DNA from: Psychrilyobacter atlanticus DSM 19335
Lineage (GTDB): Bacteria; Fusobacteriota; Fusobacteriia; Fusobacteriales; Fusobacteriaceae
DNA: 64,000 bases
NCBI RefSeq assembly: GCF_000426625.1
Contig: NZ_KE384547.1
Span: forward strand, 2,099,159-2,163,158
Direction: 5' to 3'
Shown here piece by piece: positions 45,429 to 49,088 of the stretch. Every line of letters starts with the position of its first letter. Position 1 is the stretch's first letter. The notes beneath the pieces were generated by a model, which was not told the origin of the DNA, did not search any database, and saw nothing but the letters and a program-made list of their open reading frames with translations. A program made the translations under genes and the position numbers.

Positions 45429-45458
45429 TTGACCTTATCCTCTTAATATTGATATAAT
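45429..45458 (+). promoter_or_regulatory. Sigma70-type promoter of the ftsE-ftsX-envC operon
   Basis: TTGACC (45429-45434), 18 nt, TATAAT (45453-45458) on the plus strand, about 75 nt before ftsE. Confidence 0.7.
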
Positions 45459-45533
45459 TTAATGATAAACAGGTAGTTATTTTCTATCCGTAAACTTTCA
45501 ATTATCAACTCTTGTTTCATAGGAGAAATCAAT

Positions 45534-46184
45534 ATGTTAAAATTTAAAAATATAACTACCAATGAGAAGAAACCCTATCTTAATAATTTAAATTTAAATG
45601 TTTCAAATGGAAGATTTGTCCTTTTAAATTATAAATCTAAAATAGAAAAAGATAAGATGATCGACTTAATCTGCCAGCTTGATACTCCTAAATCCGGTGG
45701 TATCATAATCGGAGGTAAAAACCTCTCTAAATTTAATTGTCGTTCAAAAATAATCCATAAAAGAATAGGAATTTGTTTTGAAGATTTGAAACTTATACAA
45801 ACAAAAGATGTCCTAGCAAATATAACTCTTCCTTTGGAGATCCATACAAAATTATCTCCTAAAAAACTCATTGAAACAGGTGAGAAGCAGTTAAAAAATT
45901 TCGGTCTTTTAGAGAAAAAAAATAATTCTTTAACAACTCTAAATTTAGAGGAAAAGCAAAGACTCAATATTGCCAGATCTCTAGTTTTAGATCCTGAATT
46001 GATTATCTTAGATAATCCTCAAATTCATTTAAAAATCGAAAAAATTGAGAGTTTGATGAAATATTTTCAAGATCTCAACAGCAAGGGAAAAACTATAGTA
46101 ATTTTTACCAACAATAAAAAAATTGAAAATATGATAAATTGTGACAAATATATCTTAGAGAAGGGAGCAATATCCAATGTTTAA
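45534..46184 (+). CDS. ftsE: FtsE-like ABC protein with all ATPase motifs lost
   Basis: 216 residues, collinear with FtsE from end to end and encoded directly before ftsX and an EnvC-like gene. FtsE normally powers FtsX, which activates murein hydrolases at division. Here every catalytic motif is changed. Walker A is LLNYKSKIEKDK (about 31-41), without GxxGxGKS/T. The Q-loop Gln is E83 (CFED). The signature LSGGEQ is LNLEEKQ (136-142). Walker B has N161 where the catalytic Glu belongs (ILDNPQ). The switch His is N193 (FTNN). The frame is intact and the ribosome site AGGAGAAAT is good, so this is a conserved-looking pseudo-ATPase rather than debris. Confidence 0.85.
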   Translation: MLKFKNITTNEKKPYLNNLNLNVSNGRFVLLNYKSKIEKDKMIDLICQLDTPKSGGIIIGGKNLSKFNCRSKIIHKRIGICFEDLKLIQTKDVLANITLPLEIHTKLSPKKLIETGEKQLKNFGLLEKKNNSLTTLNLEEKQRLNIARSLVLDPELIILDNPQIHLKIEKIESLMKYFQDLNSKGKTIVIFTNNKKIENMINCDKYILEKGAISNV

Positions 46185-47028
46185 AAAAATACGTCAAATG
46201 AATACCGAGATAAATGAATTGATCCAAAAAAATATAACCTACTATACCCTTAGTTTTACTACTTTGATCTTTGCATTTTTATTTTTTAATATAAGTGTTA
46301 TCTCCATCTATAACATCTATCAGAGCAATAAAACTTTAAACAAAAGTTATACTCTCAGTGTGTATATGAACAACAACGTCTCTCAAAATAGTATTGAGAA
46401 GATTGAAAAAAACATTCTAAACCTTGATGGTATTGAACAAATCAGCTATATAAACAAAGAACTAGCATTTAAAAAATTAGCTGATCAATTGGGTCTCAGC
46501 AATCGTGGAATAGGTAACCCTCTTTTAAACTCTTTCATATTAAAGACTGAGGGAGAAAAAAACTTAAATCAAGCAAAAGTTATCATCGATGAGATCGACG
46601 GTGTAAAAGAAGTCGTCATCAATCAAAAAACTATCAGTACATTAGATGAAAAAATCAAAAGAAATAATAAACTTCTAATTGGACTGCTTTTAATCACATT
46701 GCTTCCTATAAAAATAATGATATTTAATATAATGCATAGTAGTGTTGTCAGTCAAACTCATGATATAGAAGCTAAATTATATTTGGGGATGGAAAAAAGG
46801 GAGATCTTAAGACCTTATTATTTTATAAATAATATAAAATTTATCTCAGCAGCGATTATAGGGAGTTTAACATTTTTAAACCTCTATGAATTTATTCGAA
46901 GTGAGATAGCTGGATTAAATTATATAGTTCCAACCATCCAGGCTGGAATAGTTGTAGGAATCATAATTATCCTTGTCAGTTTAATTTTTCCATTTGTATC
47001 TTTTAACTTAATAAAGGTTAAGAGGTAG
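46177..47028 (+). CDS. ftsX: Cell division protein FtsX
   Basis: 283-residue membrane protein. One TM near 27-50, an extracytoplasmic domain (about 55-160) that would contact EnvC, then three TMs (about 165-190, 220-240, 250-272), the FtsX topology. Overlaps ftsE by 8 nt, supporting coupled translation and a complex. The cytoplasmic partner, FtsE, lacks ATPase motifs. Confidence 0.88.
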   Translation: MFKKIRQMNTEINELIQKNITYYTLSFTTLIFAFLFFNISVISIYNIYQSNKTLNKSYTLSVYMNNNVSQNSIEKIEKNILNLDGIEQISYINKELAFKKLADQLGLSNRGIGNPLLNSFILKTEGEKNLNQAKVIIDEIDGVKEVVINQKTISTLDEKIKRNNKLLIGLLLITLLPIKIMIFNIMHSSVVSQTHDIEAKLYLGMEKREILRPYYFINNIKFISAAIIGSLTFLNLYEFIRSEIAGLNYIVPTIQAGIVVGIIIILVSLIFPFVSFNLIKVKR

Positions 47029-47032
47029 ATCT

Positions 47033-48151
47033 ATGAAAAAATTAATATTTTTCCTGACTTTGATGATTATTACCACAAATACATTCTCCAATAGTCTCGA
47101 TGAAAAAAAAAATCAGATCAACAGAATAGAAAATGAGATCAAAAGAAAAGATGAAGAGATCAAAAAAAATACTCAAAAAATCAAAACTATAAATAAAAAA
47201 ACAGAAACCCTGAAAGAACAGATAATTCGTGTAGAAAAGGAATTAAAGATTATTGAAAGTGAAAAAGAACTCCTAAAGATAAAGATTAACGTAGTCAGCA
47301 GAAAGGTAGACTATGGTAAACGGAATCTAAAATTCAGTTCTAAGGAACTTACCAATATGGAAAATGATTATGTAGCGATGCTTCAGTCGTGGCAGAAAAA
47401 AGATATAACCGATGAGATCGATACCTATAATTTTAAAGAGATTTTAAAAGCCAACCAAGAGAGACAGGATGAGATCAAAAGTGTCCAAAATAATATAAAA
47501 AAAGTAAAAGAAGACATAGAAAAAGAACAGAGAAATCTAAAAAAACTCCAATCCCAATTGGCGTATAAAGAACGACAGCAAGAGAGCAAAAAGAGACAGC
47601 ATAATAACCTGATTGCCCAGTATAATAAAGACAAGAAACTAACTACCGCTAAGACAAAACAAGCCAAAAATACGATAACAAACCTTCAAAAGCAAAAAGC
47701 TGCCATTGAAAAAGAGATTGATAATATAATCAGAACAAGAACCAAACAACTAGGAAATGTAAATTATTCCACTGTTGCCAAAAACTTGGGAAGTTTTAAA
47801 AAACCTATCTCAGGAAAAGTTGTGGTCGGATTCAATCAAGCCAAGGTCGGAGGAATTCGTAGTTCAGGACAGGAGATCCAAGGAAACTTAGGAGACCGAG
47901 TTGTTTCTGCAAATAAAGGTAAAGTTATCTATGCAGGTAAATTTATGAATATGGGAAAAGTTGTCATGATAGACCACGGATATAACTTGATCACTATCTA
48001 TGGAAACCTAATCTCTAACTATGTAAAATTAGGGCAGACGGTAGGTAAAGGTAGTGAAATTGGAATTTTAGGACTTAACTCCGATGGAAGATCATATCTT
48101 TATTATGAGACGAGATTTAACCTTAAATCTTCTAACCCAAATAATTTTTAG
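47033..48151 (+). CDS. EnvC-like murein hydrolase activator (coiled coil plus degenerate LytM domain)
   Basis: 372 residues. Signal peptide ends near NTFSNS. A very long Lys/Glu-rich coiled coil (about 20-245) is followed by a C-terminal M23/LytM domain (about 255-372). The Zn ligands are missing: the first His/Asp motif is GGIRSSGQEI instead of HxGxD, and HxH is replaced by YLYYETR. This matches EnvC-type activators, which switch on amidases rather than cut murein. Four nt after ftsX, giving an FtsE-FtsX-EnvC module. Confidence 0.87.
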   Translation: MKKLIFFLTLMIITTNTFSNSLDEKKNQINRIENEIKRKDEEIKKNTQKIKTINKKTETLKEQIIRVEKELKIIESEKELLKIKINVVSRKVDYGKRNLKFSSKELTNMENDYVAMLQSWQKKDITDEIDTYNFKEILKANQERQDEIKSVQNNIKKVKEDIEKEQRNLKKLQSQLAYKERQQESKKRQHNNLIAQYNKDKKLTTAKTKQAKNTITNLQKQKAAIEKEIDNIIRTRTKQLGNVNYSTVAKNLGSFKKPISGKVVVGFNQAKVGGIRSSGQEIQGNLGDRVVSANKGKVIYAGKFMNMGKVVMIDHGYNLITIYGNLISNYVKLGQTVGKGSEIGILGLNSDGRSYLYYETRFNLKSSNPNNF

Positions 48152-48293: not shown

Positions 48294-49088
48294 ATGAAAA
48301 AAAAGGTATGTATCATATATAATACCTCTAAAAAAGATGCAATAAAATTTTATGAAGTATCCAAAGAATTCTTCGAAAATTGCGGTGTAGAGGTCCAGTC
48401 AGAGATAGAGGGATCAGCTTTTGTCGTGGTTATCGGTGGAGACGGAACTCTCCTACAGGCCAGCAAAGATATAGCTAATCACAATAAATTTGCTATTGCT
48501 GTAAATATGGGAAGTCTTGGATTTCTTACAGACATAAGAAGGATCGAAGCTCTTCAAGTTTATGAAGATGTTTTGATGGGAAACTACAAATTAGAGGAAA
48601 GACACATGTTAGAAGTAGAGGTCAGAGGAGAAAAATATACGGGACTCAATGAAGTGGTTCTGGCAAAGGGAGGAATCCTGCAAAAATTAATCAGAATTAG
48701 AGCTTCAGGGGAATACTATATCAATACCTACAGAGCAGACGGATTAATTATTGCTACTCCTACAGGATCAACTGGTTATTCCCTTTCTGCAGGAGGACCC
48801 ATCATCAGATCAAATTTAGACGTACTTCTAATTACTCCTATCGCTCCACACAACTTAAGCACTAGACCTATAATAGTAGACGGGAAAGAGGAAATCACAC
48901 TAAGATTAGAGGGTAGAGAGGATTCTGCCTATATAGCTGTCGACGGAGATGATGCTATCGAGGTTACCAAGGAGGATACTATCAAGATCAGATATTCAGA
49001 TAAAAAACTGAAGTTAGTGCTGCCAAAGTCGAGAAATTATTATTCTGTTTTAAGGGAAAAATTAAAGTGGGGAGATAAGATATGTTAA
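48294..49088 (+). CDS. nadK: NAD kinase
   Basis: Phosphorylates NAD to NADP. 264 residues, with the GGDGTLL site (VVVIGGDGTLLQA) and the downstream glycine-rich GSTGYSLSAGGPI motif. GGGGGAG precedes the ATG. Overlaps recN by 7 nt, a pairing seen in many bacteria. Confidence 0.95.
   Translation: MKKKVCIIYNTSKKDAIKFYEVSKEFFENCGVEVQSEIEGSAFVVVIGGDGTLLQASKDIANHNKFAIAVNMGSLGFLTDIRRIEALQVYEDVLMGNYKLEERHMLEVEVRGEKYTGLNEVVLAKGGILQKLIRIRASGEYYINTYRADGLIIATPTGSTGYSLSAGGPIIRSNLDVLLITPIAPHNLSTRPIIVDGKEEITLRLEGREDSAYIAVDGDDAIEVTKEDTIKIRYSDKKLKLVLPKSRNYYSVLREKLKWGDKIC

Follow-up and report, generated by a model that had tools for sequence, protein, structure and literature searches.

The FtsEX complex is described as a machine in which cytoplasmic ATP use sets free enzymes that cut the wall on the outer side of the membrane. 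In the E. coli FtsEX-EnvC-AmiA/B system (FtsE b3463, FtsX b3462, EnvC b3613), ATP binding is held to drive EnvC activation by releasing its restraining arm, and EnvC is toxic when unregulated (PMC12505981). Recruitment of FtsEX and EnvC is independent of ATP hydrolysis, and FtsE binds the C-terminal peptide of FtsZ (Du 2020, PMC7343993). Moreover, FtsE(D162N)X still brings in EnvC and supports cell separation provided that it cannot block FtsA (PMC7343993). In F. nucleatum, the ftsX locus carries no ftsE, ftsX and envC mutants filament, and both proteins are required for normal division, for which a stand-in ABC ATPase was suggested (Wu 2018, PMC5915739). FtsX-EnvC therefore works in that species without an adjacent FtsE. 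While the absence of ftsE from F. nucleatum is already published, we found no natural pseudo-FtsE in the openly licensed papers that we searched, and the catalytically dead intermediate described below appears to be undescribed in that literature.

Psychrilyobacter is a marine bacterium. We analyzed a 64,000-nt stretch of the P. atlanticus DSM 19335 genome (hereafter the window; GCF_000426625.1, NZ_KE384547.1:2,099,159-2,163,158, forward strand), in which ftsE, ftsX and envC follow one another and are succeeded by nadK. The features of the locus, numbered from the first base of the window, are:

45429..45458, + strand: promoter-like TTGACC-18-TATAAT with a TG 5' of the -10 element, upstream of ftsE (11/12 consensus match, which alone is no proof of function)
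45522..45533, + strand: ribosome-binding site GGAGAAA (GGAGAAATCAATATG) preceding the ftsE start, read from the sequence
45534..46184, + strand: pseudo-ftsE, 216 aa, predicted FtsE fold without ATPase motifs (TIGR02673, AF2 model, PDB match)
45630..45656, + strand: YKSKIEKDK (residues 33-41) at the former Walker A site, retaining K39 but neither the glycines nor the Ser/Thr (E. coli FtsE alignment, as for the next four features)
45780..45782, + strand: former Q-loop Gln, now E83
45939..45959, + strand: LNLEEKQ (residues 136-142), where the LSGGEQ signature used to lie
45996..46016, + strand: ELIILDN (residues 155-161) at the former Walker B site, with D160 unchanged and N161 in place of the catalytic Glu
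46110..46112, + strand: former switch His, now N193
46177..47028, + strand: ftsX, 283 aa, FtsX_ECD domain (PF18075, 50.0 bits), overlapping ftsE by 8 nt
46750..46824, + strand: FtsX cytoplasmic coupling region SQTHDIEAKLYLGMEKREILRPYYF, kept as in E. coli FtsX (alignments)
47033..48151, + strand: envC-like gene for a putative amidase activator with a coiled coil and a LytM/M23 domain that has lost its zinc ligands (PF01551, 67.9 bits; E. coli EnvC alignment)
48294..49088, + strand: nadK (NAD kinase), a downstream neighbor conserved among the relatives examined

The preliminary description of this locus had listed reading frame, ribosome site, ftsX overlap and EnvC partner as preserved, and all four read that way in the sequence. 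The order ftsX-envC-nadK is the same as in F. nucleatum; there ftsX has no ftsE beside it, whereas Psychrilyobacter retains a selected but catalytically dead FtsE. In E. coli, envC lies elsewhere in the genome rather than adjoining ftsX.

The top family model for the ORF at 45534-46184 is FtsE (TIGR02673), with a score of 122.8 bits that does not reach the curated cut-off of 264.85. An AF2 model of the protein (pLDDT 91.6) has as its closest match among the PDB chains searched E. coli FtsE from an FtsEX-EnvC structure (8hd0_A), with a TM score of 0.94, a Z score of 29.9 and an rmsd of 1.6 across 215 residues, and we consider the FtsE fold a confident prediction. By fold, family and operon the ORF is FtsE, though far under the family cut-off.

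Alignment with E. coli FtsE shows how thoroughly the ATPase site has been rewritten. The Walker A sequence GHSGAGKST is replaced by Y33KSKIEKDK41, the Q-loop glutamine by E83, the Walker B glutamate by N161 and the switch histidine by N193, and the LSGGEQ signature falls within L136NLEEKQ142; the protein thus has no GxxGxGK[ST], LSGGQ-type or Walker B DE motif. None of the three P-loop glycines survives, nor does the Mg-binding Ser/Thr, and E38 sits where the phosphates would lie. An initial claim that every ABC ATPase motif was lost goes slightly too far, as two key residues are left: lysine K39 of Walker A and aspartate D160 of Walker B. In the AF2 model, helix 1 is predicted to take the place of the P-loop: it begins three residues ahead of K39, leaving only a 2-residue loop (34-35), whereas the intact-like FtsE of another Fusobacteriota genome (G063), modeled in the same way, has a 6-residue P-loop and a helix starting at the Walker lysine.

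These replacements are shared well beyond one genome. E83, N161 and N193 are identical in 7/7 Psychrilyobacter genomes, and because these separate assemblies agree, neither sequencing error nor chance accounts for them. As noted at the outset, sequence quality is no explanation, and RecN and PotA in the window have canonical motifs. E38-K39 and, in the signature region, E140-K141 are common to all pseudo-FtsE proteins, which we found in Psychrilyobacter (g1), g9, g10 and g14 (Propionigenium maris), at least four genera of the Fusobacteriaceae. The most divergent Psychrilyobacter pseudo-FtsE is that of genome G058 (L022, L051), which is missing 16 residues around positions 60-75 of the window protein with its frame intact.

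The partners of FtsE are retained. FtsX has its extracellular domain, and its FtsE coupling region is kept in the pseudo-FtsE genera (HDIEAKLYLGMEKREILRPYYF, against a 22-residue counterpart in E. coli). In the crown genera without ftsE this region is lost, with a 3-residue deletion, while several ftsE-less genera of family f4 retain a version of it. The window EnvC combines a coiled coil and a LytM domain without zinc ligands next to ftsX, and E. coli EnvC likewise has no zinc ligands (PMC11627006). Elsewhere, the P. atlanticus genome encodes FtsA, one Amidase_3 protein and an FtsZ ending in DLEIPAWMRRNN, with the C-terminal peptide IPAWMRR. The FtsE fold, the ftsE-ftsX overlap, the FtsX extracellular domain and coupling region, the degenerate EnvC LytM domain and the FtsZ C-terminal peptide are all shared with the E. 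coli system; the ATPase motifs, in contrast, are erased.

We judge it fairly likely that the protein is a true FtsE descendant turned pseudo-ATPase, which selection retains as a structural subunit. Our best reading is that it is a nucleotide-independent scaffold holding FtsX-EnvC at the division ring, a role that we infer from the behavior of E. coli FtsE. Pseudo-FtsE would dimerize beneath FtsX, dock onto the retained coupling region and tether FtsX-EnvC to the Z-ring, and EnvC would activate its amidase in response to something other than ATP cycling by FtsE, for example recruitment or the geometry of the septum. EnvC activation in Psychrilyobacter presumably cannot depend on a normal FtsE ATP cycle, and since ATP binding is held to activate EnvC in E. 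coli, an ATP-free trigger must be assumed here. The closest laboratory parallel is E. coli FtsE(D162N)X, which does not hydrolyze ATP, as would be expected of the natural protein, and with which EnvC recruitment and some cell separation persist (Du 2020, PMC7343993); that mutant is thought to be ATP-locked, whereas the natural pseudo-FtsE has probably lost nucleotide binding too.

The two remaining key residues would allow a different role, in which pseudo-FtsE is a nucleotide sensor that binds ATP or another nucleotide non-canonically through K39 and D160 and switches FtsX without hydrolysis. K39 is invariant across pseudo-FtsE and in 16/16 aligned sequences, and D160 is nearly so, which could reflect residual nucleotide binding and counts against the scaffold; in g9 and g14, moreover, the residue at the catalytic glutamate position is still acidic. 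We nonetheless regard such a sensor as unlikely, given the substituted glycines and Ser/Thr, the glutamate at the phosphate site, the helix modeled in place of the P-loop, and the loss of the signature, glutamine and histidine.

Catalysis could instead be supplied by another ABC ATPase, acting by itself or paired with the dead subunit in a heterodimer. The P. atlanticus genome has many intact ABC ATPases, and an FtsX pulldown in F. nucleatum yielded a cation ABC ATPase, a match that its authors deferred to further work (Wu 2018, PMC5915739). We found no FtsE above the TIGR02673 cut-off in any of 98 Fusobacteriota genomes, so by this test there is no second canonical ftsE; the nearest is that of G063, at 249 bits and beside its ftsX. 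In the P. atlanticus genome, no ABC protein is nearer to FtsE than general ABC similarity, and we found one copy of FtsX. The intact second ftsE that would have overturned the preliminary description was thus not found by family cut-off in this genome. Moreover, in those ftsE-less genera that we examined, the gene immediately upstream of ftsX does not encode an ABC ATPase. Overall, a substitute ATPase seems improbable to us for Psychrilyobacter; for F. nucleatum, it is neither confirmed nor excluded by the present data.

We estimated selection on ftsE and ftsX by profiling omega on a grid in IQ-TREE, alongside pairwise Nei-Gojobori values. In Psychrilyobacter, omega is ~0.12 (ftsE) and ~0.10 (ftsX), and in the three g9 genomes the respective values are ~0.16 and ~0.06, all approximate because the kappa grid ended at 4, the best value in most sets. 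Omega = 1 is rejected for ftsE in both groups (2dlnL 250 and 76, respectively), and the frame is uninterrupted in 7/7 Psychrilyobacter copies and in g9, g10 and g14. Constraint acts on ftsE, a little less tightly in g9, and with dN/dS at ~0.12 and omega = 1 strongly rejected its decay is not neutral; the dN/dS near 1 that would have spoken for simple decay is not what Psychrilyobacter shows. Two observations count against the scaffold: ftsE outpaces ftsX in g9, and the former motif positions show no significant enrichment in conservation over the rest of the protein within Psychrilyobacter (19/38 versus 67/178, p 0.20). A decaying relic, kept chiefly for translational coupling to ftsX and heading for loss, would fit the 8-nt overlap, the faster evolution in g9 and the absence of ftsE from the sister clade, but is very unlikely in view of this constraint, the intact frames and the retained FtsX coupling region.

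We detected ftsX in 80/98 Fusobacteriota genomes by combined protein and FtsX_ECD searches, and found four states of the ftsE locus. Two genomes, G062 and G063, have an intact-like ftsE. The four g25 genomes have a partly decayed gene, with a shortened Walker A, the signature LSYQEK and the histidine lost but DE kept. The third state is the degenerate ftsE of g9 (3 genomes), g10, g14 and 7/8 Psychrilyobacter genomes, the contig of the eighth beginning within ftsX. Finally, no ftsE adjoins ftsX in roughly 50 genomes examined, where a transketolase gene usually precedes ftsX; this count leaves out a small number of ftsX loci, and a small number of contigs ended too soon upstream of ftsX to be scored. 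The ftsE-less genera, including Fusobacterium and Cetobacterium, retain ftsX-envC. In g21 (13 genomes), g18, g22 and G001, these searches did not find FtsX, and the entire FtsEX system seems to be gone.

In a tree of RpoB, the single marker on which our species order is based, g10, then g1, then g9 and g14 diverge successively below an ftsE-less clade of g2-g7, g12 and g13 (support 100/99), to which Fusobacterium and Cetobacterium belong, with weaker support for the branch separating g10 from the rest (88/82 to 94/86). An AU test rejects the pseudo-FtsE genera as a single clade (p-AU 0.014), for a group defined after the first tree was inspected. The shared E38-K39, which stands in place of the GK of intact FtsE, is consistent with an already dead ancestral protein that was carried through several divergences of genera. 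Loss of the ATPase motifs probably preceded loss of the gene, and pseudo-FtsE looks like a stage towards the complete disappearance of ftsE seen in genera such as Fusobacterium and Cetobacterium; with ATP dispensable, the crown Fusobacteriaceae would have been free to drop ftsE entirely. The ftsX genes of g8 and g11, which branch at the base of the family, likewise have no ftsE next to them, and parsimony requires at least 5 presence/absence changes.

Family f4 (G064-G096) shows a separate peculiarity. FtsA exceeds its family cut-off in nearly all genomes outside f4, genus g13 and G097, whereas f4 has only short partial matches of ~150 residues, which look MreB-like to us. FtsE is also decayed or absent in f4, and because the division block caused by ATPase mutants of FtsE in E. 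coli acts via FtsA, the two losses may be linked.

The preliminary description had proposed a pseudo-ATPase serving as a scaffold or some other drive for septal hydrolysis. Motif loss, constraint and the lack of a spare FtsE above the family cut-off support the pseudo-ATPase, and a scaffold is its likeliest role. It is an even call whether FtsX-EnvC is here a naturally evolved division switch that runs without an FtsE ATP cycle, with FtsE long kept as a non-nucleotide adaptor between Z-ring and FtsX and the phylum preserving the series from intact-like to dead to absent. A lineage with a dead FtsE, together with relatives that have FtsX-EnvC only, offers natural material for separating the structural from the enzymatic role of FtsE. 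The finding is also relevant to FtsE-free division in Fusobacterium, whose ancestors probably gave up FtsE catalysis before they gave up the gene, and it suggests that the Psychrilyobacter lineage may trigger wall-splitting at division without ATP.
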